A DNA stretch of 64,000 nucleotides from Anaerolineaceae bacterium (GTDB lineage Bacteria; Chloroflexota; Anaerolineae; Aggregatilineales; Phototrophicaceae). The first letter of the stretch is position 1; every line of letters starts with the position of its first letter. The notes under the pieces are model-generated. The model was given only the letters and a program-made list of their open reading frames with translations, made no database searches and was not told the origin of the DNA. The translations under genes and the position numbers were made by a program. Location of the stretch: assembly GCA_002699585.1 (NCBI GenBank), contig PABP01000024.1, forward strand, positions 1-64,000. Reading direction: 5' to 3'. This document shows positions 13,533-28,441 of this stretch, piece by piece.

Positions 13533-13562
13533 TCTCAAGCAAATTCAGGGGAATTTAGGGGA

Positions 13563-13591
13563 AACGGCTCGAAATGGGCCGTTATCTTCTT
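13563..13591 (+). terminator. Terminator hairpin
   Basis: AACGGC (13563-13568) pairs with GCCGTT (13578-13583), followed by ATCTTCTT. It follows the large secreted protein gene by 30 nt. Confidence 0.6.
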
Positions 13592-13613
13592 AATACTTTC
13601 TGTACAAAAGGGT

Positions 13614-13642
13614 TTGACCCCGAAAATAATTTATGATATATT
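13614..13642 (+). promoter_or_regulatory. rho promoter
   Basis: TTGACC at 13614-13619, a 17-nt spacer and TATATT at 13637-13642. It leaves a leader of about 220 nt before rho, which is long and could carry autoregulation as in other bacteria. The rest of 13533-13870 shows only a CCGGAATTTTACCGG inverted repeat near 13771 and no convincing gene; a 61-codon open frame at 13660 looks like chance. Confidence 0.65.
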
Positions 13643-13870
13643 CTGCTTAGTGGTCAGGCGTGAGCCTTTCTCCCTATTACCCTGCAACGTATGATAAAGT
13701 ATATCACCCGTGCTTAACTGCGTCTCACTCATCGGGACGCCCACAGCCTACCCTAAACAATGCCTATGAACCGGAATTTTACCGGCTAACCAACTATCCT
13801 TTAGTCATGCTGCCCCAAACAGCAATTAAGGTGCGCGCGCCTTAGCGCCAATACCGGAGACCTAATACAT

Positions 13871-15163
13871 ATGGACATAGCCCAACTCGAAGGCAAATCG
13901 CTGACCGAACTGCGTACTATGGCGCGTGAACACGAAGTGCCGCGCTTTAGTCGTTTAAAGAAAGATGATCTGATCATCGGCTTGCTGCGCGTAGAAGCGG
14001 AGCGTCACGGCCATCAACTGCGTGGCGGCGTGCTAGAAGTTGTCGATGACGGCATCGGCTTTTTGCGCAGTGACAATTACCTACCCGGCGTCAATGACAT
14101 TTACGTCAGCCAGTCGCAGATCAAGCGCTTTAACCTGCGCACCGGCGACATGGTTATCGGCCAGGTACGTTCTCCAAAAGACAGCGAGAAGTACTACGGC
14201 CTGCTGCGCGTGAATGCGGTCAATGGCCTCAACCCGGAAGATGTCAAACGGCGGCCCTATTTTGAAACGCTGACCCCCATCTTCCCGGAACGCGGCTTTA
14301 ACCTGGAAACACGCCCCAACATTCTCTCCACCCGTTTACTCAATTTGATCGCTCCTGTCGGCTTTGGCCAGCGTGGCCTCATCGTTTCACCGCCGAAATC
14401 CGGTAAAACGACTGTGCTCAAGGACATCGCCAACGCCATCAGCCAGAATTACCCGCAGGTCCACCTGATGGTTGGCCTGATTGGTGAACGTCCTGAAGAA
14501 GTGACCGACATGGACCGCAGCGTGGATGCCGAAGTCATCGCCTCGACATTTGATGACCCGGTGACACATCATGTGCGCGTAGCGGAAATGGCGCTGGAGC
14601 GGGCCAAGCGGCTGGTCGAACTGAAGCGGGATGTGGTGCTGCTGCTGGATAGCGTCACCCGACTGGCACGCGCTTATAACCTGGTCGTGCCCACCAGCGG
14701 ACGTACCCTGTCCGGTGGTCTGGACCCGGCAGCTATCCATCCGCCGAAGCGCATTTTTGGTGCAGCGCGTAATGTGGAAGAGGGCGGCAGCCTGACCATC
14801 GTCGCCACCTGCCTGGTCAATACGGGCAGCAAGATGGACGATATGATTTATGAAGAGTTCAAGGGTACGGGCAACATGGAACTGCACCTGAGCCGCCGTT
14901 TGCAGGAACGCCGCATTTTCCCGGCGTTCGATGTTGGCCAGAGCAGCACCCGCCGCGAAGAAATGCTCCTCGGTCCGGATGTGCTGCAGCGCGTCTTCAC
15001 CATGCGCCGTATGTGGAACCATCTGGTGGATACCACCGATACGGGCGAAGTTGGCGCGACCGAGCAACTGCTCAACAGCTTCCGTATGTACCAGACCAAC
15101 GAGGACTTCCTCAACAATTTGCCAGGGGCCACCAACGGCGTCGGCGAACGGTCCGTGTACTAG
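13871..15163 (+). CDS. rho: Transcription termination factor Rho
   Basis: A 430-residue protein of normal length. The N-terminal helical domain begins [19 protein letters not shown]. The OB-fold RNA-binding part includes [16 protein letters not shown] and [19 protein letters not shown]. The motor domain has Walker A PPKSGKTT at about 175 (Ser in place of the common Ala), [12 protein letters not shown], Walker [18 protein letters not shown] and the Q-loop/R-loop region [14 protein letters not shown]. The C-terminus has [12 protein letters not shown]. It forms a hexameric RNA helicase that ends transcription. It lacks the long insertions seen in some actinobacterial Rho proteins. It has its own promoter and terminator. 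Confidence 0.98.
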
Positions 15164-15169
15164 GGCTAG

Positions 15170-15215
15170 GCCCTCCTCACCCTCAATTCCTCTCCCACAG
15201 GAGAAGGAATTCAAA
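15170..15215. repeat. Intergenic C-rich repeat, family B copy 2
   Basis: CCCTCCTCACCCTCAATTCC then TCTCCCACAGGAGA: a C-rich left arm followed by a small hairpin. It resembles the units at 58134 and 63075. Confidence 0.45.
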
Positions 15216-15224
15216 GCGAAAGCA

Positions 15225-15254
15225 AAAAGCACGCCCATCAGGACGTGCTTTTTT
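15225..15254 (+). terminator. Bidirectional terminator between rho and a glycine-zipper gene
   Basis: AAAAGCACG (15225-15233) pairs with CGTGCTTTT (15244-15252). It has a T-run on the plus side and, on the minus side, another T-run, so it can end both convergent transcripts. Confidence 0.85.
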
Positions 15255-15280
15255 GATTGCTGTTTTTCGCTAAAAGGGAA

Positions 15281-15463
15281 CTATTCCTCTTTTTTCTTGC
15301 GCTTGTCTTCATCCATTGCGCTCGAGAACGCCACGCCCATCGCCACGCCGAGAGCGATCCCCACAGCGATATTCCCCAGGGCCACGCCGAGGGCAATACC
15401 CACGCCCATGCCCAGAGCTAAGCCCTGAGGATTCATGTCTGCATCTGAATTTTTCTTCTTCAT
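15281..15463 (-). CDS. Small glycine-zipper membrane protein
   Basis: A 60-residue protein. A charged N-terminus (MKKKNSDAD) is followed by one hydrophobic segment of small residues with G-every-four spacing (LALGMGVGIALGVALGNI, then AVGIALGVAMGVAF), and a charged C-terminus (DEDKRKKKEE). Glycine-zipper segments pack tightly in membranes and often oligomerise. A paralogue with the same design lies at 16344-16523. A role as a membrane peptide or channel-like element is speculation. Confidence 0.75.
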   Translation of the reverse strand: MKKKNSDADMNPQGLALGMGVGIALGVALGNIAVGIALGVAMGVAFSSAMDEDKRKKKEE

Positions 15464-15591
15464 GTGATAGTCGCCTTGTTTGATGTCTATGCTATTCAGT
15501 GTATCAAACAGGCGACCGCCCCGGTCCCCGAAAGATTGGGGGTTTGCTACATGAGTTGCAAAGAGCGAAAAACATTGTAATTATCAATTAG

Positions 15592-16068
15592 CTAGAGAGG
15601 TTCACTTCTTAGATAAGACAGGAATTTTCTAGCGTACTTCACTGATGCGAAGCCATGCCCAACAGACCCAAGTACACACAACAATGTCACAGCATAACTG
15701 GAAAGCGGACTTCCCATAGTTCCTTCAATTGAGCTAGAAGGTTTATATTCTAAGTAGGTAATGTCAATTGAGGTTCCTAACTGAACCTCTGAACAATTTT
15801 CGTACGCAAACTGAGCCAGCCATGTATCAAAGTAAATTTCACGATTCACTGTGTAACTATACGTGACAAATGCATGGGGTTTTGAACGCCCAGCTACCAT
15901 CTCACAATTTGTGATCGTTGCTAAGGTGCTAACGCCATACTCACTAAATGAGTATGCAAATTCGGCCATTGAATAGGAAAAAATTCCAAAAACAAGGCTT
16001 CCCAAAAAGAACCCTACAGCCATGATAGCTGTGAACAATAGCTGAAACTTCGCATTGAAAGTGAACAT
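15592..16068 (-). CDS. DUF3592-like membrane protein
   Basis: A 158-residue protein. Residues about 10-35 and 125-142 are membrane segments, with an exposed domain between. That domain begins STLATITNCEMV and contains HAFVTYSYTVNREIYFDTW and ends TSIDITYLEYKPSSS, the pattern of DUF3592 (a short beta domain after one membrane helix, ending in a Y-x-P). The gene is distinctly AT-rich against its neighbours, which suggests a different history. Function unknown. Confidence 0.7.
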   Translation of the reverse strand: MFTFNAKFQLLFTAIMAVGFFLGSLVFGIFSYSMAEFAYSFSEYGVSTLATITNCEMVAGRSKPHAFVTYSYTVNREIYFDTWLAQFAYENCSEVQLGTSIDITYLEYKPSSSIEGTMGSPLSSYAVTLLCVLGSVGHGFASVKYARKFLSYLRSEPL

Positions 16069-16282
16069 AAATAGCTCGCATCGACTAAGTTAAGCAGACT
16101 TGTTTTCTAGATCAGAATTGAAGATAGAGTCCAAATTTGCATTACTTCGTACTTAACAAAGTATGAAAGCTTCACAATAAAGATTACCAAAATCTCAGCT
16201 TTACGAACCCACAATAATTGGGGGATCAGTAACTTCGAGAATCATTAGCCAAGCATGGAACATATTGGAAAAAATGTGCAGC
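16069..16282. other. AT-rich intergenic spacer
   Basis: Upstream of the DUF3592-like gene. I see no gene, tRNA or strong hairpin here until the terminator at 16283. Confidence 0.4.
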
Positions 16283-16306
16283 AAAAAGGCGCGGTATGTC
16301 GCGCCT
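16283..16306 (-). terminator. Rho-independent terminator (minus strand)
   Basis: AGGCGCG (16287-16293 on plus) pairs with CGCGCCT (16300-16306), with a T-run on the minus strand from 16287 to 16283. It ends the gene at 16344-16523. Confidence 0.85.
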
Positions 16307-16343
16307 CTAGCGTTCATCACATGATTAGTTTGCTGGCGAGTGC

Positions 16344-16523
16344 CTAAGCCTGGTCGGATTCCATGTTCTGGCCCATTGCGATACCAAAAGCGACACCCAT
16401 GGCAATGCCCATACTCATGCCGATCCCCATATTGCCAGTGGCAACGCCCACACCAGCGCCAATCGCGAGGCCAATCGCCATACCAGCGGGGTTAAGTTTC
16501 TGTTCGGACTTTTGCTTCTCCAT
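16344..16523 (-). CDS. Second small glycine-zipper membrane protein
   Basis: A 59-residue protein starting at ATG 16523 with AAGGAGG seven bases upstream, and ending in TAG at 16344 before a terminator, so it is a real transcription unit. The sequence is MEKQKSEQKLNP, then a small-residue hydrophobic stretch with repeated Gly-Met and Gly-Ile steps (GMAIGLAIGAGVGVATG, then GMSMGIAMGVAFGIAMG), then a polar tail QNMESDQA. Core and layout match the 15281-15463 protein (both have the string AMGVAF), so the two are paralogues. A short length cut-off would miss it. Function unknown. Confidence 0.8.
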   Translation of the reverse strand: MEKQKSEQKLNPAGMAIGLAIGAGVGVATGNMGIGMSMGIAMGVAFGIAMGQNMESDQA

Positions 16524-16609
16524 TGTGCGCCTCCTTATATACTTGCCCTAGTATGGCAAATTAATATAAGCCAACCTTTAATGGCGTATCGGTATGCCGA
16601 AGGAGCGAC

Positions 16610-17023
16610 CTAAGAAGGAGAGACGATCACCTGGTGCCAGTCGATATTCCGGGTGATGCCCACTTTGAGGCTTTCCAGAAAGCCGAGGGCTTCCTCAATC
16701 GTATCGAAAAACTCGGTCTTGGTGGTGGCTTCCAGCGACATGCGGCGGAAGCTGCTGACCATAATGCGGCTGATGGGATCATTGCTAAAAGCGGTTCCGC
16801 CGCCGTAGTTGGGATGCTTGGTGAGGTCGCTCATTTGCTCCAGGGTATCCGCCGAGATAATGCGTCCCTGGCGCAGGTCGGAGATGTAGTAGAGGGGGTT
16901 TTCGGCTTCATCAAGCTGCTGGCGATGTTCGGCTAAGAAGCGGCGTTCATCGTCTTCTGAGGGGTAGGCGTGCCAAGTCACCAGAATGAGATTCGGAGAC
17001 AGATATTGACATGTGTACGCCAT
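16610..17023 (-). CDS. SpoIIAA/STAS-like small protein
   Basis: A 137-residue soluble protein. Strand LILVTWHAYPSEDDERRFLAEH, helix, then YYISDLRQGRIISADTLEQM, then a strand SRIMVSSF and a helix with IEEALGFL match the layout of the protein at 3983-4369. The position after ISDL corresponds to the docking strand of STAS-like proteins. No catalytic motif is seen. It is probably a partner-binding regulator. It is monocistronic with about 180 nt of upstream AT-rich DNA. Confidence 0.6.
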   Translation of the reverse strand: MAYTCQYLSPNLILVTWHAYPSEDDERRFLAEHRQQLDEAENPLYYISDLRQGRIISADTLEQMSDLTKHPNYGGGTAFSNDPISRIMVSSFRRMSLEATTKTEFFDTIEEALGFLESLKVGITRNIDWHQVIVSPS

Positions 17024-17205
17024 ACGTGTCTTCTCGATGATCAGGCCAGGGCCACAATTGTCGTGTTTGTAATAACTCTATTATGTCACAAATGGCCCCA
17101 CATAGTGTGATTTTTTGCTCACTTTTTGCACAAAAATGGTAAGTGACACGTAGCTATTGTGCACAATTCAAGCCAAAGCCAACCCTCAGAACGATTTTTT
17201 GCATG

Positions 17206-17214
17206 TGCTATAAT
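17206..17214 (+). promoter_or_regulatory. Extended -10 promoter of gatC
   Basis: TGCTATAAT with consensus TATAAT at 17209-17214, placed 38 nt before gatC. No -35 consensus is seen. Confidence 0.7.
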
Positions 17215-17251
17215 GTCGGCGTGATTGAATGATCTGAAATGAGAGTGACCG

Positions 17252-17566
17252 ATGGCCGACAATGCTACCCTGACCCACGATGATGTCCGCGCCATTGCGG
17301 ACCTGGCACGCTTACAACTCAGTGATGAAGAAGTCGCTAAATACGCCGAGCAGCTCTCAGCGATTTTGCATGACTTCCAGAAGTTACAAGCGGTCGATAC
17401 GTCGCACATCGACCCGATTGCCTCAGTGCTGCCCCTAAAATCGGTCATGCGGGAAGATACGCCCCTGCCAGCCCTCAAGCCAGAGGATGCCGTCAGCAAC
17501 GCACCTGACAGCGACGACGACCAGTTCCGGGTAAAAGCCGTTCTCGACGGCGACGGGTCGGCTTAG
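17252..17566 (+). CDS. gatC: Asp-tRNA(Asn)/Glu-tRNA(Gln) amidotransferase subunit C
   Basis: A 104-residue protein. The N-terminal helices have the family pattern DDVRAIADLARLQLSDEEVAKYAEQLSAIL, then LQAVDTSHIDPIASV and the conserved REDTPLP. GatC wraps around GatA and GatB to form the GatCAB complex that converts misacylated Glu-tRNA(Gln) or Asp-tRNA(Asn) to the amide form. gatA and gatB are not adjacent. A PPOX gene follows by 18 nt, so the two are probably co-transcribed. Confidence 0.95.
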   Translation: MADNATLTHDDVRAIADLARLQLSDEEVAKYAEQLSAILHDFQKLQAVDTSHIDPIASVLPLKSVMREDTPLPALKPEDAVSNAPDSDDDQFRVKAVLDGDGSA

Positions 17567-17584
17567 GCCCACCCTGCGCGGCTA

Positions 17585-17974
17585 ATGCCTACCCTGCCCG
17601 ATTCATTCCGCGACCTGCTGCTGCCGGAAACGCGCGCGTTTGTCGTGCTGCATACCCAATCCGAAGATGGCGACCCGCTGCTGACGCCGATGTGGTTCAG
17701 CATGGAGGATGACACGCTGCTGCTCAATTCCACGCCGACCACACGCAAGCACAAAAACATCCTCGCTAACCCCCATATTCGCTGCCTGATCTTCGACCCC
17801 GGCAACATGTACCGCTACCTGGACATCACGGGTACGGTCGTCGACATCACCCAGCAAGGGGCCAACCTGCACAATCAATTATTGGCACAAAAATACGATT
17901 GGGATGATGGCACGTTCGGGGAAAATCGGTTGATTTATCGCGTTCGCATCGACCGCGCAAAAGGGATCGAATAG
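17585..17974 (+). CDS. PPOX-class F420-dependent (pyridoxamine 5'-phosphate oxidase-fold) protein
   Basis: A 129-residue split-barrel protein. LPDSFRDLLLPETRAFVVLHT, then LLTPMWFSMEDDTLLLNSTPTTRKHKNILANPHIRCLIFD, then YLDITGTVVDI is the usual order for PPOX-class F420-dependent enzymes. The R-K-NI segment after the third strand binds the cofactor phosphate. It likely reduces a small molecule with F420H2 or binds FMN/heme; the substrate is unknown. It is second in a probable unit with gatC. Confidence 0.85.
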   Translation: MPTLPDSFRDLLLPETRAFVVLHTQSEDGDPLLTPMWFSMEDDTLLLNSTPTTRKHKNILANPHIRCLIFDPGNMYRYLDITGTVVDITQQGANLHNQLLAQKYDWDDGTFGENRLIYRVRIDRAKGIE

Positions 17975-18067
17975 CTAGCTTTTCACCCTAAGAATACCAT
18001 TTTGACGTACAATAGAGCTAGCTCGTTGGCTGAACAACTGTATCCATATCAGCAGCGAGGCATTGCC

Positions 18068-18739
18068 ATGTATTCGATCAACCTGGAAGCCATCTCTCTC
18101 GACGAATTCGCAGAAATTACATCAACAAAGTATCTCATCCCTGGCCGACGCATCCTACTTGATCACCTGCTAAGCGTCATGCAGCATCTAAAAACTCAGA
18201 ACATCCAACATCTAGCAAGCCTAAAAAAGCTGCTGGGCGACAAAAAGACTTACACACACATGGCAGAAGACCTCGGCGTCAGCGTTGAGTATCTCACTGT
18301 CCTCAATCGGGAAGTTAACAGCTATGAGTCGAAACCGATTGCCTTATCTAAGCTTGACATTTTCACTGTATCAGAACTCGAACAGTTAAAATCCGCTGGA
18401 TTGAGATCCACCAAGCACTTCTATGAACAGGCACTCACTGCTGACGATAGGCGTAACCTGGTTTCCCGATCTCAGTTGAATGCAGACAAAATCTTGCAGG
18501 CACTGGAACTGGCTGACCTGCTCAGGATTAATGGGGTTGGCCCCGTTTTTGCGCGCGTATTACAAGCAATGGGCATTCACAATGTGGCCCAATTTGCTCA
18601 AACGGCCCCGGAGACAATTCTTGAACGCTATATCCAATTTAGAGAAGCGAACGACCCCTCCTTGCCAAACCTCAGCATAAAGGATGTGCAATACAGTCAA
18701 CGATTCTGTGGCAAACTGGATAATGACATCCAGTGGTGA
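18068..18739 (+). CDS. DUF4332 helix-hairpin-helix protein
   Basis: 223 residues from ATG 18068, placed by GCGAGG seven bases upstream; a TTG at 18002 lies in a likely promoter. The C-terminal part has ELADLLRINGVGPVFARVLQAMGIHNVAQFAQT, the helix-hairpin-helix pair of DUF4332, which is related to DNA-binding HhH motifs of ligases and repair nucleases. The N-terminal half repeats a similar pattern (FAEITSTKYLIPGRRILLDHL). No nuclease motif. A nucleic-acid-binding role is plausible but unproven. It converges on the next gene with a 7-nt gap. Confidence 0.75.
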   Translation: MYSINLEAISLDEFAEITSTKYLIPGRRILLDHLLSVMQHLKTQNIQHLASLKKLLGDKKTYTHMAEDLGVSVEYLTVLNREVNSYESKPIALSKLDIFTVSELEQLKSAGLRSTKHFYEQALTADDRRNLVSRSQLNADKILQALELADLLRINGVGPVFARVLQAMGIHNVAQFAQTAPETILERYIQFREANDPSLPNLSIKDVQYSQRFCGKLDNDIQW

Positions 18740-18746
18740 AGCGGGA

Positions 18747-19613
18747 CTAAACCTTGTTGGCTTTGTCCTCGTGGTAGACGTGTTCGACTGGGCAACGCGA
18801 AAGCGCCCCAATTTCGTCGGCAAAATCGCGAAACGGAACCAGCGCAAAGCTAACCGTTTCGTTCATGCTGTAGAGGTGGACGATACCTTCCGGCGTCCCG
18901 GGTTTGAGCACCGAATCCAACATCCCGGATAGACGTTCCACAGCCAGAACACGGCGCACGCTGCTGATGTCCAGTTTGGCCTGGACACGGTCGCCTTTGA
19001 GCATCACCAGCAGATGCGGCAGCACATACAGTTCTACGGGTTGGTTGAGGACGGTATCGCCTTGCAGCGATTGATGTGCACTGTAAGCAGGCAGCGGCCC
19101 AATCGGTTTATAAGCCAAATTGCCCACGTTGATGCGTCCGCTGTGGACCGCCTGACGCAGCACACGGACCAGCAGGCCCATTTCCATCTGCGGTAGGTGC
19201 AATGTCAGCAGATGCCAGCGACGGTCGCGTTCGATGTGCAGTGTGATCGCGGAGACATTACCCGGTTCTAAGCTGATGTCGCTCACCCACTGGATGGCCA
19301 TCAGCGGGAAGTAGAGTACGCGCTGCGAACGGGCATCCTGCAAAACCAGATCGCCGTATTCGAGGTGCAATTGGGCAAACCCGCGTGACTCCCCCGGTTG
19401 GTGTGGCGTACCGAAATGATACACACCCGCCTGAGCAATGACCCCGAAGGGCTTAGGTTTGGTCGAATTGTCGTCGGCAGGGAGCAGGCGGGGGGTGGGT
19501 TTTTGGAAATGGCGCTGCTGCCAATGGGTGCGTGCCAGGGCGATCAAGCCGCCAGTTGCGAGTGTCGCCAGGGCGATCAAGCCAAATTCTAGCATCGAGG
19601 GTCCGTCATACAA
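18747..19613 (-). CDS. Membrane-anchored protein of unknown function
   Basis: A 288-residue protein. One N-terminal membrane helix (FGLIALATLATGGLIALA) is followed by a cytoplasmic or exposed beta-rich region. Two similar stretches, LQLHLEYGDLVLQD-type and VLNQPVELYVLPHLLVMLKGD, each end in a short helix with positions resembling PH-like strands. ATG 19595 is an alternative start just before the membrane helix. No family is recognised. Confidence 0.65.
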   Translation of the reverse strand: MYDGPSMLEFGLIALATLATGGLIALARTHWQQRHFQKPTPRLLPADDNSTKPKPFGVIAQAGVYHFGTPHQPGESRGFAQLHLEYGDLVLQDARSQRVLYFPLMAIQWVSDISLEPGNVSAITLHIERDRRWHLLTLHLPQMEMGLLVRVLRQAVHSGRINVGNLAYKPIGPLPAYSAHQSLQGDTVLNQPVELYVLPHLLVMLKGDRVQAKLDISSVRRVLAVERLSGMLDSVLKPGTPEGIVHLYSMNETVSFALVPFRDFADEIGALSRCPVEHVYHEDKANKV

Positions 19614-19794
19614 CTGCTGAAGTCGCCATCAGTATATCACGGCGTCAACCCAGGTCGTTACGGATAAAGTGACATCTCATATAAACCTTTAACGGTCTTG
19701 TACAGCGTTGATGGGGCTTATTATGAATCGAATCGCCTATAAAATGCCTATTCCATAACACTCTCTTTGCAAGACAAATAACGACGACACAAAA

Positions 19795-20676
19795 TCATGG
19801 AACATTCCCATCGTTACGCGTCGCACGCTGTTGCATCCATGTGTCAAGTTCCGAACTGATTTCGGCGCTCAGTAGCAGAATTGCCAGGCTGATGAACGCC
19901 CAGATCAACAGGGCGATGACCGCACCTAGCGAGCCGTAAACCACACTGTAATTAGCAAGGGTTTCCAGATACAACGCAAACACAGCTCGGCTTACTTCCC
20001 ACCCAATACTGCCAAGTATCGCACCGGGGACGATCGCTCGCCAGCGTGTCCGCGACCTGGGCACGTAGCGAAACAACAGTGACAGGGTGAGGGTATAGAG
20101 CATTAGTGGCACCAGCAACGAAACCGGGCGCATTATCGCGCTGGGATATTCTAAACTCGTCTGCGTGAACGAGCGCAGGCTATAGGTAATGATTAGCGTA
20201 GCAGCCAATAATAGCGCCAGTATGAAGATTGTCGCCACTCCGACAAGACGATTACGCCACATGGGGCGAACAGGGTTGGCTGGCTCGAAGATCGTGTCTA
20301 GCGCGACCGTCAGGTTAGAAAAGAACGAAGACGCTGCCCATAAGAACCCGGCCAATGCGACGATATTAAGCGTGGGTCCCTCACTCAAAGCGCCTTCCAC
20401 ACCTGAAATGATCATCGTCGGAACGTCTCCCGGAAAGAGGCGTTGCGCCAACCGTTCTACTTGCTCCTGCACGACAGTTTCACCCCAAAGCAGATTGGCC
20501 ATTAATAGCAACAACAACAAAGATGGAAATAGCGACAGCAGTGCATAATACGCAAGCGCTGCTGCTCGCAATCCATCTCGCTGGTTAAAGTTCAACCAAA
20601 CCCGCTTGAGAAGCCCCAAGAGGTTCAGGGGCGAGTCATTCAGGTGAGAATCGGCTGTTTCGGGTTGTTCCGGCAC
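19795..20676 (-). CDS. YihY/BrkB family membrane protein
   Basis: A 293-residue protein with six membrane segments. The signature at about residues 35-60, DGLRAAALAYYALLSLFPSLL, and the later GSLGAVIALLIWAFISLAILLLSAEI are hallmarks of YihY/virulence factor BrkB proteins (once misannotated as RNase BN). The C-terminal tail is short and charged. It lies in the plasma membrane; its exact activity is unknown. A 44-nt gap separates it from the upstream deiodinase-like gene, so they may share a transcript. Confidence 0.9.
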   Translation of the reverse strand: MPEQPETADSHLNDSPLNLLGLLKRVWLNFNQRDGLRAAALAYYALLSLFPSLLLLLLMANLLWGETVVQEQVERLAQRLFPGDVPTMIISGVEGALSEGPTLNIVALAGFLWAASSFFSNLTVALDTIFEPANPVRPMWRNRLVGVATIFILALLLAATLIITYSLRSFTQTSLEYPSAIMRPVSLLVPLMLYTLTLSLLFRYVPRSRTRWRAIVPGAILGSIGWEVSRAVFALYLETLANYSVVYGSLGAVIALLIWAFISLAILLLSAEISSELDTWMQQRATRNDGNVP

Positions 20677-20720
20677 CAGATCGATTTCCTCGTATGGTCC
20701 TCATTAACTACGAAATACAA

Positions 20721-21467
20721 TTATTCCCGCGGCCAATCTTTAGGCACTGACTGTGGGAAGGTACGAGCAAAGTCATCAACGGCTTGCTGACCATTGCGTG
20801 CCAACCCATCGTAAAATGCATTGCCATCACTCTCACGATATTCCACGCGCTGAACCTGGAACGGAGAAAGACGAGCGCCTGATTTACGGCGTTCTGGCAG
20901 CTTTTGCAAATATTCCAGCATATCAACCACACTGGCGACATGCGTCCAATCCGACTTGTAAAGCACAGTCCCGGTCCGGCTGAAAATCCAGGTCATGTTG
21001 GGCATGCTGCCATAAGCACGATGACAGGCCCCATCGAGCGAATCTACCAAAATGGGCCTAGCCACGCCGTACACATCCCGCAGGGCGGTGGCGTGGCGGA
21101 ATTTTTGCACCATCGAGGTCAGCGGCGGGTAATTTTCGCCTGGATGCGCTTCGTTAGTATAGAGAAAGTACGATCCTATGCCTTGCGACGCAAAGCGGTC
21201 GGCAGCGGCGTTCATAGCTTCTGACGCCAAGCCGCAGTACGGTCAGGTGAAGCTACCGAACTCGATGACCGTATATTGATGCTCCTTCCAGATTTCGCTC
21301 AGATGTACCTCAGACTGGTCATTCTGGCGCCACAGCGGGAAGTCGGGCCCGGTCTCCATCAGAGGCGGACTCTGGTCGAAGTTCATCCAGGGGCTGTATT
21401 TTTCTTCACTAAATTCATCGTAGTTGTATAAGGCCAACAAATCTTTTTGGTCCATCAGGCTACCCAT
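20721..21467 (-). CDS. Deiodinase-like thioredoxin-fold selenoprotein (in-frame UGA read as Sec75)
   Basis: The frame runs from ATG 21467 to a stop at 20721, with one in-frame TGA at 21245-21243 (codon 75). Reading it as Sec gives a 248-residue protein. Around the codon the text is VIEFGSFT-U-PYCGLA, matching the deiodinase active site NFGSCTU-PPF. Next come FLYTNEAHPGENYPP (deiodinase: IYIEEAHP) and PILVDSLDGACHRAYG, then WIFSRTGTVLYKSDW, all in the order and spacing of iodothyronine deiodinases. Cys78 gives a UxxC pair. A SECIS-like hairpin begins eight bases after the TGA. Without readthrough the protein is 74 residues with no catalytic core. Bacterial relatives are probably peroxiredoxin-like redox enzymes and not thyroid-hormone enzymes. 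The sel genes are not in this window. Confidence 0.85.
21203..21234 (-). promoter_or_regulatory. SECIS-like hairpin after the UGA codon
   Basis: On the minus strand: lower stem CGGC with GCTG (21234-21231 and 21206-21203, one G-U pair), a bulged UU on the 5' side (21230-21229), upper stem GGCGT with ACGCC (21228-21224 and 21211-21207), and a 12-nt loop. The apical loop lies about 20-31 nt after the UGA, the expected zone for a bacterial SECIS bound by SelB. A bulged U is a known feature of the E. coli fdhF element. An alternative pairing of GCGGC with GCCGC also exists. Confidence 0.6.
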
Positions 21468-21603
21468 TTCTCTATTACACTCGGAACATAGACACCTTAT
21501 GATAACGCATGTTTAAGGTCCACCAGATATGGGCCGCAGGCGTCCACCAAATTGTCGGCAGATTGCTTGTATGACTTTGTATGCTCGTAATCCACCAATT
21601 CAA

Positions 21604-22584
21604 TCAGTGAACGTGTTTATCAGGGTGAAGTGAATTGGACATACCCAGCCACTTGAGGACAAAATCTGGCTTCTGGCAAAAGATGGAACTCAGGAGAATG
21701 AGAAGTAGCGCCATTAAAAAGTAGGGTTGCGTCAAATGATCTTCGCCAAACATCAGCGCGATGATGCCTAACGACAAGACGGGCAACACGAACATGATGG
21801 AGGCAATTGAGGAAATATCAATTTGCAGCTCATAAGCCAGACGATTCGCGCGGGTCCAGGTGATGTAACCCAGGCCATTCATAAACAGCCCGGTGGAAGC
21901 AGCAATCAATACATCGGAGAGCGTCAAACTACCGATGACGTCCAGCTCCGACAATGAGACAAGGGACATCAACAACAAGCTAAAAAGAACAGCCCTCAGC
22001 AAGAACAACCCTTGCTCATCTTTAGCCACAGTGCTGGAGAAGGCACTAAACAGGCCATAGGACATGCCCCCCATGAGTCCCCATGCAATGCCGGGGCCGT
22101 TGCTCAGGTCCAAAGACGCAAAATCACCCCGTGTGCCGACAATGATCACCGCAGCAAAGCCCATCAGGATGCCAAACTGCTGAACCAGGCGATAACTCAG
22201 AGGCCGCTTGGCTTTGCGACCAAAGATGGTCATTGTGAAAATAATGGTAAACAGGGGCCATGTATAGTTCAGCAAGACCGTTTCAGATGCCCCATCGAAC
22301 TGGCGATAGCTCTGGGCCAAGGCACCCACATACACAAAATAGCCAAAAATGCCGAAGAAATAGTGACTTAATTTAAACTCGCCCAATAACTTCTTGAACA
22401 GCGCCCCGTGATAAATCGTCGCTTGATACCCCAGGAAGAAAAGCGCGGAAAATCCAAAGGTCATACTCTGTAGCAAAAACTGTGATTTGATTGAAAGCAA
22501 GCGCCCTAAAGCACCCCCAAATGACCACAAAGCGATGGTGATAAGCGCCAGTAAACCAGGCCGATCTAGGATTGTTTTTAGCAT
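21604..22584 (-). CDS. EamA-family (DMT) transporter
   Basis: 326 residues from ATG 22584; a longer frame from 22659 has a non-hydrophobic front and is less likely. Ten membrane segments in two five-helix halves are visible: LLALITIALWSFGGALGRLL near the start and SDVLIAASTGLFMNGLGYITWTRANRLAYE in the second half, the drug/metabolite transporter pattern. The segment GASETVLLNYTWPLFTIIFTMTIFG is the usual end of the first repeat. The substrate is unknown. It sits in the plasma membrane and appears monocistronic. Confidence 0.85.
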   Translation of the reverse strand: MLKTILDRPGLLALITIALWSFGGALGRLLSIKSQFLLQSMTFGFSALFFLGYQATIYHGALFKKLLGEFKLSHYFFGIFGYFVYVGALAQSYRQFDGASETVLLNYTWPLFTIIFTMTIFGRKAKRPLSYRLVQQFGILMGFAAVIIVGTRGDFASLDLSNGPGIAWGLMGGMSYGLFSAFSSTVAKDEQGLFLLRAVLFSLLLMSLVSLSELDVIGSLTLSDVLIAASTGLFMNGLGYITWTRANRLAYELQIDISSIASIMFVLPVLSLGIIALMFGEDHLTQPYFLMALLLILLSSIFCQKPDFVLKWLGMSNSLHPDKHVH

Positions 22585-22806
22585 GCAATGACCTAGCCAG
22601 AATCCATATGCGGGGAGTATACATTCCTGGCTATCGATGCACAAAAGCGATGGTCTCAATTGCTATTCTGTTCGTTAAATCTCCGGTATCGCGCTAGAAT
22701 GAATCGTATTACAATAATCGCGAATATGAGAACGTGTGAATTACGGGTCAGGCGAGGATGCCAGCGGCCCATCAAATTGGACCCACGAAGTAGAGGATAA
22801 CCCCAC

Positions 22807-23643
22807 ATGCGTGAAATCACGGTTGCCATCGTGCAGATGAAGCCGGAGTTGGGTGAGCCAGAAGACAATCTGGTCAAAATGTCGGAGATGATCTCTCGCA
22901 TTGCCTCCCAGCAAAAGGTGGACCTGATCGTCTTCCCGGAACTGATTACCAGCGGTAATGAGTTGGGTGTGCGCTTCACCGACATCGCCCAGCGTGTACC
23001 CGGCCCGACCGTCAACTTGATCGCCCAGCGCGCCAATGACTTCGGCATTTATGTCGCGTTCGGCATGGTGACAAAAGAGCGTGTGGAAAGCGTGCTATAT
23101 AACTCGGCGATTCTGGTTGGCCCGGATGGTGAACTGGTCGAGACGTATAACAAAGTGCATCTACGCGGCGAAGAACGCATGGCGTTCCGCGAGGGATTTA
23201 AGCTGCCCGTCGCCGAAACAGAAATTGGCAATATTGGTCTGATTATCGGCTATGACCTGGCCTTCCCGGAAGTAGTCCGCAGCCATGCGCTGGAAGGCGC
23301 TGATCTGGTGTGCGTGCTGGCCAACTGGGAAACAGCCAATATCGACGAGTGGAAAACCTACATGCGCGCCCGCGCCTATGAAAACAGCCTGTTCCTGGCC
23401 GGGGCCAACCGCGTCGGTGAAGATGTGACGCTGAACTTCGGCGGTGAGAGCATGGTCGTCGGCCCGCGCGGCGAAATTTTCGCCAGCATGGAAGACGAAA
23501 CCGACGAAGAAACGGGCGAACCGCTGGAAGGTTTCGCCGTCGCCCGCATTGACCTGGATCAGGTCCGTAAAAACCGCGAAGAGTTCCAGTTCATCCAGAC
23601 ACGGCAGCCGGCTGTGTATCGGGCACTGGTGCGGAAGTATTAG
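22807..23643 (+). CDS. Carbon-nitrogen hydrolase family protein lacking the catalytic Cys
   Basis: A 278-residue protein aligned throughout with nitrilase-superfamily enzymes: ITVAIVQMKPELG at the start, VFPELI with Glu45, LVETYNKVHL with Lys116, and IGNIGLIIGYDLAFPE. In active members the last motif is ICYDLRFPE, with Cys as nucleophile. Here codon 148 is GGC (Gly), while Glu45, Lys116 and the flanking Tyr-Asp are kept. So the amidase reaction by the standard mechanism should not occur. It may be a pseudoenzyme or a binding subunit. The start is close to the family N-terminus. It ends in a strong terminator and stands alone. Confidence 0.85.
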   Translation: MREITVAIVQMKPELGEPEDNLVKMSEMISRIASQQKVDLIVFPELITSGNELGVRFTDIAQRVPGPTVNLIAQRANDFGIYVAFGMVTKERVESVLYNSAILVGPDGELVETYNKVHLRGEERMAFREGFKLPVAETEIGNIGLIIGYDLAFPEVVRSHALEGADLVCVLANWETANIDEWKTYMRARAYENSLFLAGANRVGEDVTLNFGGESMVVGPRGEIFASMEDETDEETGEPLEGFAVARIDLDQVRKNREEFQFIQTRQPAVYRALVRKY

Positions 23644-23670
23644 CATTTTCTGTAGCAAAAACGGCATGAA

Positions 23671-23705
23671 ACAACCGCCCATCAGGGGGCGGTTGTTTTG
23701 TTGTT
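23671..23705 (+). terminator. Rho-independent terminator
   Basis: ACAACCGCCC (23671-23680) pairs with GGGCGGTTGT (23687-23696), followed by TTTTGTTGTT. Confidence 0.9.
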
Positions 23706-23722
23706 AACTGATGCAATTTCCC

Positions 23723-24439
23723 TCAACGGATGTCAATCATCGGCGGGAGCGTTTCGCGCAGGATAAACCGTTGAACAACATGTTGCACGGTGTGCGACAC
23801 ATACCGCACCCGGCCAATTCTAAGTCGTCGCGGGGACGTATAAGCGACCAAACACGGATCATATTGAATGCTGAACTGCCGATTCATGCGCAGCGACAGA
23901 TCGGTATCTTCCCCAGAGAACATCTCCTCTGAAAAGCCACCCACAGCCATAAAGGCATCACGCTGTACAGCGAAATTGCTGCCCCACCAGAGGCTATGCC
24001 CCAGCCGATTACTAGCTGCAAGGACCCAGGTTGCCGGGTATTGAAGCGCCCAGCGGTCAATCGGCTGTGCCTCTGGCCAATACACCGGACCATACACACC
24101 GCCCAACTGGGGATTTTCATAAAAAGCACTGGCAATATGCGCCAGCCAATGGGGCGAAACGGCTGTGTCGGCATCCGTGCTGGCAATAAGGCTGCCCTGG
24201 GCGGCCATAAAGCCCATTTGCCTGGCCCTGGCAACGCCTTTCCTGGCTTCCGGAATGACGGTTGCGCCCCACTTGCGAGCGATCTTCGCTGTGCAATCGG
24301 TACTGGCGTTATCCACCACCAGAATTTCATAACGCTCCCTTGGATAAACCTGATGGGTGAGGCTGCGCAGGGAATATTCGATATAGTCCTGTTCGTTATA
24401 AGCAGGGATGACGATAGTGATATAAGGGAATTTGTCCAT
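23723..24439 (-). CDS. Family 2 glycosyltransferase
   Basis: A 238-residue protein. ITIVIPAYNEQDYIEYSLRSL and EILVVDNASTDCTAKIA form the nucleotide-sugar-binding Rossmann-like half. STDADTAV carries the DxD metal site, and GGFSEEMFSGEDTDLSLRM is the acceptor-side ED motif. It transfers a sugar from a UDP- or GDP-sugar, probably to a lipid or polysaccharide acceptor at the inner face of the membrane. There is no membrane segment, so it is likely peripheral. A small Cys-rich gene lies 33 nt upstream, perhaps in the same transcript. Confidence 0.9.
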   Translation of the reverse strand: MDKFPYITIVIPAYNEQDYIEYSLRSLTHQVYPRERYEILVVDNASTDCTAKIARKWGATVIPEARKGVARARQMGFMAAQGSLIASTDADTAVSPHWLAHIASAFYENPQLGGVYGPVYWPEAQPIDRWALQYPATWVLAASNRLGHSLWWGSNFAVQRDAFMAVGGFSEEMFSGEDTDLSLRMNRQFSIQYDPCLVAYTSPRRLRIGRVRYVSHTVQHVVQRFILRETLPPMIDIR

Positions 24440-24472
24440 ATCCTGGCTCCTAAGCGCGTCAAAGGCCGGTTG

Positions 24473-24721
24473 TCAGCGGTCAACATCTTTGTAGGGGTTA
24501 TGAGGGCACAACGGGCAGCGTTCATCCCCTGCCTGGGCAAAGCACTGGACATCATATGACACCGTGACCGCATCCTCTCGCTCGATAAAGGTATAGAGAT
24601 CGCTATGCGGGCACCGCAAAAACGCCTCCAGTTCAGCGTGTGGAACCTGGCAGTGTTGGCACAGGGCGGCATCTGGCCCAAGATCAGAGAACATGACCCC
24701 AACCGAACAACTATAAGACAT
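24473..24721 (-). CDS. Small cysteine-rich protein
   Basis: 82 residues from ATG 24721 (a TTG at 24787 would add 22 residues). Cysteine pairs CQHC, RCPH, then CFAQAGDERCPLC suggest one or two zinc-binding ribbons. No family is recognised. It lies directly upstream of a glycosyltransferase on the same strand; a functional link is unproven. Confidence 0.55.
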   Translation of the reverse strand: MSYSCSVGVMFSDLGPDAALCQHCQVPHAELEAFLRCPHSDLYTFIEREDAVTVSYDVQCFAQAGDERCPLCPHNPYKDVDR

Positions 24722-24927
24722 GGCACCATCCGATGGCGACGGACTATCAACGCGCAAGGGGCATGGAGAGTGTTTTGAAGTGGCCAATGCTTCCGATCCT
24801 TGCTACTAATTGCACGAAATTGTTTGCATAAGCGACAAATGACGATAAAATCAGTCTAGGCAGGTCCGCAATCTGTGTCAATCAGCAACTTGCAGCACAT
24901 GTTGATTAAGCAACGAAAGCACACATT

Positions 24928-25554
24928 ATGTCGAAAAAACCCTCAAAAACAGATCCGCGAGTGATGCGTACCCGGCAGCTTTTGCGCGATGCGCTCATCG
25001 CGTTAATCCATGAAAAAGGCTTTGATGCCGTCAAAACGCAAGACATCACTGCGCGTGCGACACTAAATCGGGCAACGTTCTATCTTCACTATCGGGACAA
25101 AAACGACTTGCTGATAAAGAGTCTGCACGAAGTGTTGGAGGAGTTAGATGGTGCGGTCAACGTTCCGCGCATACGCAACAACCGCCTGTCTGCCGATGCC
25201 ATTATCAAGCCACTGGTCACCATATTCGAGCATTTCGCGCAACATGCTGAGTTTTACCGGGTGATGTTGTGCGAAGCTGGCGTCCCATCCATCCTGGACG
25301 AGCTGCAGCAATATATCGAAACCGTTGCGCTGCAATGGATCACCGAATTGCAGCCGCACTCGGATTTGCGCATTGTTGACCCGAATATGGTCATCCGGTT
25401 CGCCAGCACGGCCTATATTGGGGTGGTCAAATGGTGGCTGGAAAATGATTTCCCGCACTCTACAGAGCAAATCACGGAACAATTTCTATGGCTGATCTCG
25501 TTGGGAATTTTCCGGTCCATTGGGCTGGAAGTTCCTTCGAGTGTGGGCAAGTAG
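24928..25554 (+). CDS. TetR/AcrR family transcriptional regulator
   Basis: A 208-residue protein. Residues about 12-60 are the TetR DNA-binding region: TRQLLRDALIALIHEKGFDAVKTQDITARATLNRATFYLHYRDKNDLL, with helix-turn-helix then FYxHYxxKxDL. The C-terminal helical part (about 70-205) resembles TetR_C_7-type ligand domains. No efflux or catabolic gene is adjacent, so the target is unknown. It is related in its HTH to the regulator at 41864-42460. The start is ATG 24928. Confidence 0.9.
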   Translation: MSKKPSKTDPRVMRTRQLLRDALIALIHEKGFDAVKTQDITARATLNRATFYLHYRDKNDLLIKSLHEVLEELDGAVNVPRIRNNRLSADAIIKPLVTIFEHFAQHAEFYRVMLCEAGVPSILDELQQYIETVALQWITELQPHSDLRIVDPNMVIRFASTAYIGVVKWWLENDFPHSTEQITEQFLWLISLGIFRSIGLEVPSSVGK

Positions 25555-25570
25555 CGACACGCACAAAGCA

Positions 25571-25602
25571 AAAACCGCCCGTCAGTGGGCGGTTTTTTTA
25601 TT
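25571..25602 (+). terminator. Rho-independent terminator
   Basis: AAAACCGCCC (25571-25580) pairs with GGGCGGTTTT (25587-25596), then TTTATTT. It closes the TetR transcript and also faces the convergent lipoprotein gene. Confidence 0.9.
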
Positions 25603-25622
25603 TGCGTGATGCCTGAATACGG

Positions 25623-26189
25623 TTATCTTCTGGAGGCGTTGTTGGCGATGATGTTGTTGAAGTGCAGTTGGAACAAACTACAGATATTGTTGCCAACACC
25701 CACGTAGATATAGGTGAAATCTTCGCCATCGACGCTGAATTCGCCTGTATTGGCGCAGGGTTCAATCTGGACCGACTGCGTGGTCAGGCCACCGGCTTGG
25801 CGTGTGTTCGACAAGCACGCGATGACATTCTGGTTGACGCGCGTGCGGTTGACCACAACCGACACACCGGCTTCCGGGATGACATCGGTCCACTGGTCCT
25901 GCGTGTAGACCTTGCCGGCGATGGAACCCGTTTCCTGCAAGCACTGAATGACCGCATCGGCGCGTTCGATGGCAGCAATTGCTGGAATGTTGCCCGTGGT
26001 AAGGGCTGCGCCCGCCCCGGCAGTGGTGATGGCATCGACGAGATTGTCGGCATCGGTGGCCGTGTAGCCGGCGATATTCGGTAGGTAACGCTGAGCGCTG
26101 GTGGCGTCATTGGCCGTGCCGATGGTCTGGCAGGCGCTGGCAACGACGAGCATCAGCACCAGTGCGGGAATCATCAAAATTTTACGCAT
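25623..26189 (-). CDS. Lipoprotein of unknown function
   Basis: A 188-residue protein. A signal segment ILMIPALVLMLVVASAC with Cys20 at the lipobox places it in the membrane as a lipoprotein. The mature part has four more cysteines, VIQCLQE, IACLSN, EPCAN and NICSL, which may form disulfides, and it is Ala/Thr-rich. GGAGG precedes ATG 26189. No family is recognised. Confidence 0.75.
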   Translation of the reverse strand: MRKILMIPALVLMLVVASACQTIGTANDATSAQRYLPNIAGYTATDADNLVDAITTAGAGAALTTGNIPAIAAIERADAVIQCLQETGSIAGKVYTQDQWTDVIPEAGVSVVVNRTRVNQNVIACLSNTRQAGGLTTQSVQIEPCANTGEFSVDGEDFTYIYVGVGNNICSLFQLHFNNIIANNASRR

Positions 26190-26433
26190 TGTTGGTTGCC
26201 TCCACAGTTGGTGACAAGTATGTGTTGATACCAGAGTTTAAATTACACAACATATCCATTACAAAGTCTATAACACCATAGTACGTCAGGCGCATCGTCA
26301 TTGTAGCAGAATTTGTGTTCGGCGTAGGGTGAGCGTGGGGAATCGGGCCTATTCCAGAGAAATTCAACGCCAAGGCGCGAAGATGCTTATCGATAGGCAT
26401 GATGTCAGAGACTGATGAACGGCTTTGTGAGTT

Positions 26434-27339
26434 TTAGGTTTGTAGGAACGCCACGATCTCTTGATTCACCATATCCCTCTGCACAAGTAGAAGATCATGG
26501 CCAGCATCGGGAATGAGCGTTGTTTCAATTTGTGGGGCGACTGTATGAAGCCGTTGCATGGCGTCTTTGGCCGCGTACAAAACATCATTTTCGCCAATGA
26601 GACATAGCGTGGGTGTGGTGATGTGCTGTAATTCCTCATCACTCATGGCTGTCAGGACCGGGACTTCCTGCGGATTAGGCGGCACGAATGATTGCATGGT
26701 GAGCGCGAACTCCCCTACCATCGCATTCAGCATGTCAGGGTGCTTTTTTGCTAAGTCACTAAAACACCACTTAAAGTAGTTGCTAAAAGTATCTGGACCA
26801 GGGGCGATATAGAGTGCCATACTATGCTGTAGATAGGCATCACTAAAGGGTAAAATCGTCCCTGCTGGTGCAATCCAGACCATTTTACGTAACCGATTGG
26901 GATAGCGAAGGGCATACTGGCTGGCTACCCATCCCCCATAGGACGGTCCTATCAAATTCACTTCATCTACCAACCCAAGTCCATCAAACAAGCCATCCAA
27001 CCAGTCACTTGCTTGTTCGGCATTTGAGATTGTGCGTGTATAGACGCTTCGTCCGACGCAGCCGGTATTAATCAGACTATCTATTGCATAGGTTCTATAG
27101 TCCGTTGAAAGAGCCTCTATGCTGAGCGTCCACATTAACGACGTGCTGCCAGCACCCGGCAATAATACGAGGGGTGGCGCATCAACTGGCCCACTGATGC
27201 GCACAAAGGTTTGGCCATATGCCGTTTCCACCATCTTGGTTTCCGACGGGATCGGCCATTGGGTTGCGGCTTCATCATAATATGTGAGGTACGTGGTTCT
27301 GGCATCGTCTGACAGAAAAGGATGATACGGTGTATTCAT
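26434..27339 (-). CDS. Alpha/beta hydrolase
   Basis: A 301-residue protein. The oxyanion region LVLLPGAGSTSLMW, the nucleophile elbow GPSYGGW (Ser133), an acid in IGENDVLYAA and the catalytic His in PDAGHDLLLV form a complete triad. It resembles hydrolases of the haloalkane-dehalogenase/esterase group; the substrate is unknown. It follows the MerR gene on the same strand with 69 nt between, so it is probably the target and partner of that regulator. GGAG precedes ATG 27339. Confidence 0.9.
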   Translation of the reverse strand: MNTPYHPFLSDDARTTYLTYYDEAATQWPIPSETKMVETAYGQTFVRISGPVDAPPLVLLPGAGSTSLMWTLSIEALSTDYRTYAIDSLINTGCVGRSVYTRTISNAEQASDWLDGLFDGLGLVDEVNLIGPSYGGWVASQYALRYPNRLRKMVWIAPAGTILPFSDAYLQHSMALYIAPGPDTFSNYFKWCFSDLAKKHPDMLNAMVGEFALTMQSFVPPNPQEVPVLTAMSDEELQHITTPTLCLIGENDVLYAAKDAMQRLHTVAPQIETTLIPDAGHDLLLVQRDMVNQEIVAFLQT

Positions 27340-27408
27340 GATGGTTCTCCGATCATGGTGATAGGGTTTATCGCATGTTGTTGCAATTGTTATTCAAGGC
27401 TTCATAGT

Positions 27409-28245
27409 TCAGGCCTTCATAACCGGGAATTGGATCTCTGCTGTCAAGTCTCCTGTGGCTGGCGAACCATAGTAGATTTCTCGTGGAGCAGCCGTAATGT
27501 GGTACTGATTATTGGCAATCCACTGCCCAATGGCTTCGTAAGCCGGTTCCAGGCCGCGCACTTTCTGATGAAAATCGGCAACGACAACCGTTGCAGCTTG
27601 GGGGATCGCATCTATTTGTCGGATGACAATCGGATGAGTGGGCGCAGGGACATCTTCGATTTCTACACCACGTAATAAGAAAGCACATTCAGTATCGACA
27701 TGGGTACGGGTGTATCCTTCGTCATGATATAGGGCCATTGGAAAGCCGATCTGCAATCGATTCGCTTGTATCCATTCAGCAATCATTGTGAACAAGGTGT
27801 TCCAGCGCTGCGGGATATCCTCAACTGTGGCTATCGTTTCTCGGATGGCGGCGACGGTAAAGGCATCAACAGCTTTCAAGCTGATGTCAAAAGAAGGAAA
27901 TGTGCCGTCCATTTCGAGATTGTTCAAACGGGTGCTGATGCGTTCTCGGCGGCGTTGGGCTTCATCTATGGTGTTATCAATCAATTTCAACTGCGCTTTA
28001 AGAATGTCACGCACTTCTTCGATAGTCGGATTGTCCTGAAGAAGACGTTTTATCTCCTCCAGAGAAAGCCCAACATCCTTTAGTGCAAGGATTTGATTGA
28101 GTGTTTGCAGTTGACCTGCATTGTAGTAACGATAGCCTGTGAATGGATCCACTTTCGCAGGTTTGAACAAATCAATGGCATCATAATGCCGTAACGTTTC
28201 AATCGTTACGCTTGCTATCCGGGAAAACTCGCCTACTCGGAACAT
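27409..28245 (-). CDS. MerR family regulator with GyrI-like effector domain
   Basis: A 278-residue protein. Residues 1-70 are the MerR winged helix: MFRVGEFSRIASVTIETLRHYDAIDLFKP, then GYRYYNAGQLQTL. A coiled-coil dimerisation helix spans about 75-115 (LKAQLKLIDNTIDEAQRRRERI). The C-terminal domain (about 120-278) has GyrI/AraC-ligand-binding character, as in BmrR-type multidrug sensors. It is the first gene of an operon with the alpha/beta hydrolase. The promoter at 28252-28282 has MerR architecture, and transcription would begin at or next to the ATG, so the mRNA is probably leaderless. Confidence 0.9.
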   Translation of the reverse strand: MFRVGEFSRIASVTIETLRHYDAIDLFKPAKVDPFTGYRYYNAGQLQTLNQILALKDVGLSLEEIKRLLQDNPTIEEVRDILKAQLKLIDNTIDEAQRRRERISTRLNNLEMDGTFPSFDISLKAVDAFTVAAIRETIATVEDIPQRWNTLFTMIAEWIQANRLQIGFPMALYHDEGYTRTHVDTECAFLLRGVEIEDVPAPTHPIVIRQIDAIPQAATVVVADFHQKVRGLEPAYEAIGQWIANNQYHITAAPREIYYGSPATGDLTAEIQFPVMKA

Positions 28246-28251
28246 ATCTAC

Positions 28252-28282
28252 GTTATAACCTCTCGTGTAACCCTAGAGTCAA
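28252..28282 (-). promoter_or_regulatory. MerR-type promoter with operator dyad
   Basis: On the minus strand: -35 TTGACT (28282-28277), a 19-nt spacer, -10 TATAAC (28257-28252). The spacer is the length MerR proteins need to twist. It contains the interrupted palindrome CTCTnGnGTnACnCnAGAG, which fits a MerR dimer site. Only six bases separate the -10 from the MerR ATG. Confidence 0.8.
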
Positions 28283-28441
28283 GGAAGTATTTTTACTTCA
28301 CTAATCATACAAACTCTGTAACCAAAATTTCTCTCTATGATCGCCATACGCTCTATCCCGCAATACTGCTCCCATCTTGCGAAAAAACCCGCGCCCATGT
28401 ATCGTGTGGCACGCGAAGAATGACCAATCAAGGGGTCGCTG

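Follow-up and report, generated by a model that had tools for sequence, protein, structure and literature searches.

The window, as we call the whole 64,000-nucleotide stretch of DNA analysed here, very likely contains a real gene for a selenium enzyme related to the thyroid-hormone deiodinases of animals. That the arrangement is beyond chance follows from the retention of an in-frame TGA in relatives, from the selenocysteine (Sec) machinery of the genome and from selection on the sequence that follows the TGA. The gene product most likely belongs to the selenoproteins of the deiodinase branch and has Sec-Pro-Tyr-Cys as its centre. As a fuller explanation we favour, as the probable one, that the UGA is read by SelB and that the protein acts as a seleno-thiol reductase through a Sec75/Cys78 centre.

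The gene and its reading frame

The original observation of a 248-codon frame on the minus strand (21467-20721), with the TGA at codon 75 (21245-21243) as its sole interruption, was confirmed. The relevant parts of the sequence are as follows.

20721-21467, minus strand: predicted selenoprotein gene; 248 codons plus a TAA stop (20723-20721), 249 codons including the TAA
21243-21245, minus strand: in-frame TGA, codon 75, presumably read as Sec; TGA in 102/109 loci, 78/85 distinct
21234-21236, minus strand: codon of Cys78, the putative resolving Cys of U-P-Y-C; TGC or TGT in 72/72 distinct stretches of at least 40% identity
21216-21232, minus strand: site of the family's conserved SECIS-like hairpin; nt 14-30 from the U of the UGA, three of six pairs possible in the window
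21200-21234, minus strand: longer minimum-energy hairpin, candidate alternative SECIS; nt 12-46, apical loop 25-31, unconserved in relatives
21135-21152, minus strand: EAHPGE motif, residues 106-111, counterpart of the deiodinase Glu/His relay; E106, H108, P109 and E111 in 57/57 rows

Most of the sequence landmarks proposed for the protein were found (EFGSFT-U-PYC, EAHP, ILVDS and AYG), but the one given as SGT-x-LY actually reads RTGTVLY. Beyond the TGA, a listing of ORFs of at least 80 codons yields just a 169-codon piece starting from a TTG. The alignment puts the start of many relatives near Met5 (ATG at 21455), and the true start of the window gene may thus be 21455. The gene for a BrkB/YihY-type membrane protein (PF03631; window 19795-20676, minus strand) begins 44 bases past the selenoprotein stop on the same strand, and the two genes possibly form one transcript. 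Within the window, Rfam gave no match at gathering scores and ARAGORN no tRNA.

Conservation of the TGA among relatives

Relatives were sought by whole-genome searches reading through stops, in which the source genome was counted, and by screening a single genome of each species (59 loci), for which the peptides used exclude codon 75. Carriers amounted to 16/400 genomes of the phylum (E 1e-15), 29/396 of the class (E 1e-30) and 13/98 of the family (E 1e-10). The site of codon 75 is covered in 109 of 110 loci and reads TGA in 102, AGT in two, and GTA, GCG, GGT, GAT and TGC in one each; for this count L029 was moved by one codon by hand. When the loci were collapsed to distinct ones, TGA was found in 78/85. 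In the frameshifted GTA copy a TGA can be seen in another frame, and the other six non-TGA copies have at most 36.5% identity to the window. In the distant loci L030, L031, L033, L034, L035 and L036, Sec is replaced by Gly, Ala, Ser, Asp, Cys and Ser, respectively, Cys occurring solely in L035.

Codon 75 of close homologues had been named as the place to look for Cys or Sec. Among the distinct readable relatives of at least 40% identity it is the Sec codon TGA in 73/73, with no sense codon and hence no Cys form; codon 78 is TGC or TGT in all 72 distinct downstream stretches of the same identity range. In two distant loci (L029 and L032, 31-33% identity) the TGA precedes PPF, which gives the animal-type U-P-P-F order without Cys at +3. 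L091, L092 and L095 are frameshifted or N-terminally truncated copies, representing assembly errors or decaying genes. Their rows were dropped, L092 being without coverage of the site and L091 and L095 frameshifted near it. L107 (27% identity, TGA) was excluded from the alignments and L034 from alignment A1, which comprises 57 of the 82 usable distinct sequences.

The phylum of the window is probably Chloroflexota, since some copies in genomes of its own family and class are identical, over the stretch compared, to loci labelled Anaerolineae or Chloroflexi. The 73 distinct relatives mostly carry Chloroflexi or Anaerolineae labels or come from genomes of the window's phylum; five of the relatives are labelled Acidobacteriota (two), Gemmatimonadota, Latescibacterota and Fimbriimonadia. 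Plasmids contributed one distant relative, from Mycolicibacterium (26% identity). Changes from the window per site were determined by codon position (1/2/3) in 49 relatives. Upstream of codon 75 they amounted to 0.38/0.34/0.59, and downstream of codon 93 to 0.32/0.24/0.62; both halves of the gene are thus under protein-level selection.

Selenocysteine machinery of the genome

The presence of selA, selB, selC and selD had been predicted, and a search of the source genome (6.7 Mb in 42 contigs, 96% complete) found all four. Scores were 565.5 bits for selA, 344 for selB, 380.3 for selD and 72.8 for tRNA-Sec, each above the cut-off of its family. These cut-offs are reached by one, two, two and five of 14 control genomes, respectively; because of the five, the tRNA-Sec cut-off alone is loose. 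ARAGORN labels the tRNA as tRNA-SeC with anticodon TCA. The genome's own selD (L017:1450-2480, C35) has an in-frame TGA at the ASCAGU position, which makes SelD a second likely selenoprotein of the same genome. Formate dehydrogenase was considered as a further one, and the genome gave no match above cut-off and no internal TGA.

Co-occurrence with tRNA-Sec was assessed in 43 carriers whose codon at the site is TGA, including two of the UPPF form but excluding G405 (27% identity), and in 37 non-carriers, each at least 91% complete. The non-carriers were hand-picked, ahead of the result, from 85 in the window's family, and no matching by family to the carriers was applied. At a threshold of 59 bits, set after the scores had been seen, tRNA-Sec was present in 41/43 carriers and 27/37 non-carriers (Fisher p 0.0096); at the family's own cut-off the counts were 42/43 and 28/37 (p 0.0046). 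Within the window's family the link was non-significant (10/11 vs 27/37, p 0.42), a result that weighs against the favoured explanation. The single genome of the same genus has neither the gene nor tRNA-Sec.

These data bear on two other accounts of the TGA. The codon could be a genuine stop in a pseudogene, or a wrong base. The sole point for such an account is the weakness of the hairpin in the window copy (see below), and against it stand the same TGA in 78/85 distinct homologues from many assemblies, the selection downstream and the Sec machinery; we regard it as very improbable. Alternatively, TGA might be reassigned to a sense codon other than Sec throughout the genome, and the frame would indeed be open under any code that reads TGA. 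Yet the genome holds tRNA-Sec, selA, selB and selD, and the TGA lies at the catalytic position here and, in SelD, at the site described as UxxK. With the search for other TGA-reading tRNAs covering the window and four loci, the probability left to reassignment appears negligible.

RNA hairpins downstream of the UGA

The 72 downstream stretches align without gaps, and positions were counted from the U of the UGA. RNAalifold predicted a 6-bp stem pairing nt 14-19 with 25-30, approximately the position that we take to be that of the apical stem of E. coli fdhF. In this stem 96.7% of the cells are paired and 15 cells are changed on both sides, with none of 500 shuffles as high; slid versions of the stem are 31-51% paired. 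All six pairs are kept in 58/65 loci, the mean being 5.8 pairs vs 4.05 in recodings that keep the protein and apply local codon usage. Against such recodings the mean folding z of the family loci is -2.24. Codon 81 is GCG in 71/72 stretches and codon 83 CCA in 56/72; the nearby Ala89 is encoded by all four codons.

Along with L060 and L080, the window is one of the sequences in which three of the six family pairs are possible. In the tree, whose bootstrap had not settled, the window groups with L060 (88/96) and not with L080. A hairpin starting eight bases after the UGA had been proposed for the window. It is present (nt 12-46, -16.8 kcal/mol) but unconserved, 64.3% of the family cells being paired. 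By itself, this hairpin does not clearly exceed chance: z values were -0.61, -1.27 and -1.55 against shuffles of three stretches and -0.96 against synonymous recodings (p 0.18), and the hairpin ranks 11 among 235 stretches of the same gene. A register-shifted short hairpin (13-17 with 26-30) in the window, at -4.8 kcal/mol, was rejected, its pair probability being 0.0 in a 51-base and 0.036 in a 33-base fold.

The stretch nt 10-48, one of five tried and picked post hoc, folds better than recodings (p 0.022 in the window, 0.072 in L060, 0.005 in L080); nt 4-33 does not (p 0.60, 0.85 and 0.99, in the same order), and the other three stretches gave p 0.09, 0.26 and 0.14 in the window. Use of the longer hairpin in place of the family stem by the window, L060 and L080 thus has modest post hoc support and is a lead, not a result. 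The R1 covariance model scores the window at 43.9 bits; because the window is a training row of the model and departs from standard pairing at three of the six pairs, the score lends no independent support. Weaker R1 matches are present elsewhere in the genome. Loss of the family's conserved hairpin in the window copy, with an alternative reaching p 0.022 in one stretch of five, speaks against the favoured explanation.

Protein family and fold

Placement by Pfam alone is ambiguous. The window protein passes the cut-off of AhpC-TSA (PF00578; 28.9 vs 26) and falls below those of Redoxin (25.8 vs 26.6) and of T4_deiodinase (PF00837; 22.1 vs a gathering cut-off of 27). The last is the family against which the joined translation was to be aligned; that assignment fails at the cut-off, but the deiodinases are nearest by profile and fold. 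Among 57 members, E 0.001 is reached by 56 for T4_deiodinase, 55 for Redoxin and 53 for AhpC-TSA. The NCBIfam model NF038285 (deiodinase_rel) matches residues 32-172 with 48.6 bits, far under its curated cut-off of 250, which is a further point against the favoured explanation.

The placement in the deiodinase branch comes from profile and fold comparison, not from Pfam cut-offs. Compared with PDB chains, the family profile found Dio3 (E 1.5e-18) and Dio2 (2.3e-15) first, followed by thioredoxin-like proteins (1.2e-9) and ResA (4e-9). The predicted structure (pLDDT 96.6, pTM 0.92) matches Dio2 with Z 18.8 (1.9 A over 158 residues) and Dio3 with Z 17.9 (3.5 A over 167). Thiol-disulfide enzymes rank next (Z 15.0; ResA 14.2), and peroxiredoxins and thiol peroxidases score 13.3-14.6. 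The thioredoxin-like domain is followed by conserved C-terminal helices (residues 190-248), which the structural matches (27-200) mostly leave uncovered. Together with the Sec machinery and the kept TGA, the profile and fold results support the idea of a Sec-type deiodinase-like protein.

A strict selenium-dependent peroxiredoxin, with hydroperoxide as its main substrate, is a reading that overlaps the favoured one, which leaves the substrate open. Its arguments are the AhpC-TSA score and the presence of peroxiredoxins and thiol peroxidases among the structural matches. Deiodinases are clearly better by both fold and profile, ResA-type thiol-disulfide oxidoreductases come next by profile, and the T-U-P-Y-C order resembles that of CxxC enzymes; we regard the strict peroxiredoxin as possible but rather unlikely.

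At the residue level, E106, H108, P109 and E111 are invariant, S72, Y103 and C78 occur in 50/50 UPYC-type rows and T74 in 49/50. The relay proposed for Dio2 consists, in the available text of PMC11592359, of Ser127, Thr129, Tyr157, Glu160, His162 and His182. Five of these align with S72, T74, Y103, E106 and H108, and His182 falls on Leu116. Position 116 is His in 11/50 UPYC-type rows and its neighbour 115 in 40/50; the window has Pro and Leu there. In profile alignments the loop after EAHP is 9 residues shorter than in Dio3 and 12 shorter than in Dio2. As the deiodinase-specific insertion reportedly contributes to thyronine recognition (PMC11592359, same text), the short loop makes a seleno-thiol redox enzyme more likely than a thyroid-type deiodinase.

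The protein could nevertheless be a true dehalogenase that, in the manner of the animal enzymes, uses Sec to take iodine or bromine off a small aromatic compound, Cys78 serving as an internal reductant. Deiodinases 2 and 3 are its nearest solved relatives, five of the six Dio2 relay residues align, and Cys replaces Sec in 0/73 distinct readable relatives of at least 40% identity. The shortened loop, the missing sixth relay residue and the lack of any pointer to halogen chemistry among the ten proteins scanned with Pfam (next section) argue in the opposite direction and leave this alternative improbable.

Proposed mechanism and gene neighbourhood

In the favoured explanation, that of a seleno-thiol reductase, a hairpin immediately downstream would direct SelB with Sec-tRNA to decode the UGA at codon 75 as Sec. 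Within the thioredoxin/peroxiredoxin fold the product would fall into the deiodinase branch, and it would probably be soluble and cytoplasmic, a putative location. The selenolate of Sec75, assisted by Ser72, Thr74, Tyr103, Glu106 and His108, may attack a peroxide, a disulfide or another reducible small molecule. Cys78 would then resolve the oxidised Sec by forming a selenenyl-sulfide, in the manner of CxxC enzymes, and a thioredoxin or flavin disulfide reductase could restore the enzyme.

For the neighbourhood, ORFs of at least 110 codons were clustered from 41 relatives with loci exceeding 6.5 kb. One member of each cluster named below was scanned with Pfam, in a scan that covered ten proteins. 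This clustering found no neighbour shared between the window (13,000-29,000) and the 41 relatives, again a point against the favoured explanation. Glucose-6-phosphate dehydrogenase (G6PD) occurs in 6/41 loci; four of these (L042, L069, L079 and L083) belong to one tree group of seven (93/90), and L049 and L082 are outside the tree. A VTT-domain protein recurs in eight loci and lies within about 1 kb in six; seven loci have a pyridine nucleotide-disulfide oxidoreductase and six a GrdB-like protein. Ldh_2 and NAGPA proteins are in the same seven loci, and the largest cluster spans 13. In L042, L069, L079, L082 and L083 the deiodinase-like gene comes after G6PD and has the GrdB-like gene (PF07355; the L083 copy scores 35.5 bits) downstream; in L073 the GrdB-like gene lies upstream. 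Since just one member per named cluster was scanned, what the neighbours say about the electron donor is suggestive only.

A bolder reading is that the relatives form a clade whose reaction, perhaps the reductive dehalogenation of some compound in the environment, depends on selenium, so that Cys cannot take the place of Sec. In the window's branch, moreover, the conserved hairpin would have given way to a longer one whose loop lies at a greater distance from the UGA, and Sec insertion would have persisted. We hold this combination to be improbable. Whatever the reaction, the 73 distinct bacterial deiodinase relatives found besides the window include no Cys form, and a clade of this kind could escape methods that require Cys homologues. 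At least two such homologues were required by the 2005 pipeline, according to the available text of PMC1088965, and deep-Sep, by its own account, may not identify selenoproteins without them. The family's covarying hairpin, lost in the window, offers a natural test of how far the RNA signal for SelB can change, and through these proteins one could explore the roles of the deiodinase fold beyond thyroid-hormone biology.

Comparison with known systems

The bacterial family is already on record. Its first report (PMC1088965; 2005, Sargasso Sea), in the text available, counts four Sec and six Cys forms of deiodinase-like proteins, places bacterial SECIS elements in their genes and suggests a redox role; the corresponding text of PMC2398784 has 22 Sec forms beside 21 with Cys, and gives no motif. 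UxxC, originally thought to be an unusual active site for the family, is in fact the motif given for bacterial deiodinase-like proteins in the accessible parts of two reviews (PMC9312934, PMC13188914). The covarying hairpin, its loss in the window's branch and the absence of Cys forms from the clade are added here; they were not met in the portions of the literature that our searches returned.

With this bacterial PF00837 family the window protein shares a deiodinase-like sequence, predicted Sec at the deiodinase site and UxxC; the SECIS-like hairpin of the family has a candidate counterpart in the window copy. Going by published descriptions, the two differ in that the surveys had Cys forms whereas the 73 close relatives include none. 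The Prx-like thiol:disulfide oxidoreductase selenoproteins (PF00578, described with UxxC or UxxU in the text available) are the window protein's Pfam family by cut-off and have the UxxC motif in common with it; set apart likewise by descriptions, the window family has profiles and folds that favour deiodinases first. The match to deiodinase_rel noted above confers likeness over residues 32-172 at a score well short of membership.

Animal Dio2 and Dio3 (PDB 9h48 and 4tr3) resemble the window protein in fold, in FGSxT-U-P, in EAHP and in five of the six relay residues. They differ from it in having Phe instead of Cys at +3, a loop after EAHP that is 9-12 residues longer and the sixth relay His; the window protein in turn has conserved C-terminal helices beyond the Dio2-aligned stretch (31-190). 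ResA-type thiol-disulfide oxidoreductases share a CxxC-like centre and the thioredoxin-like fold, but in the window family Sec replaces the first Cys, and the ResA profile matches end at about profile position 101, before the EAHPGE motif.
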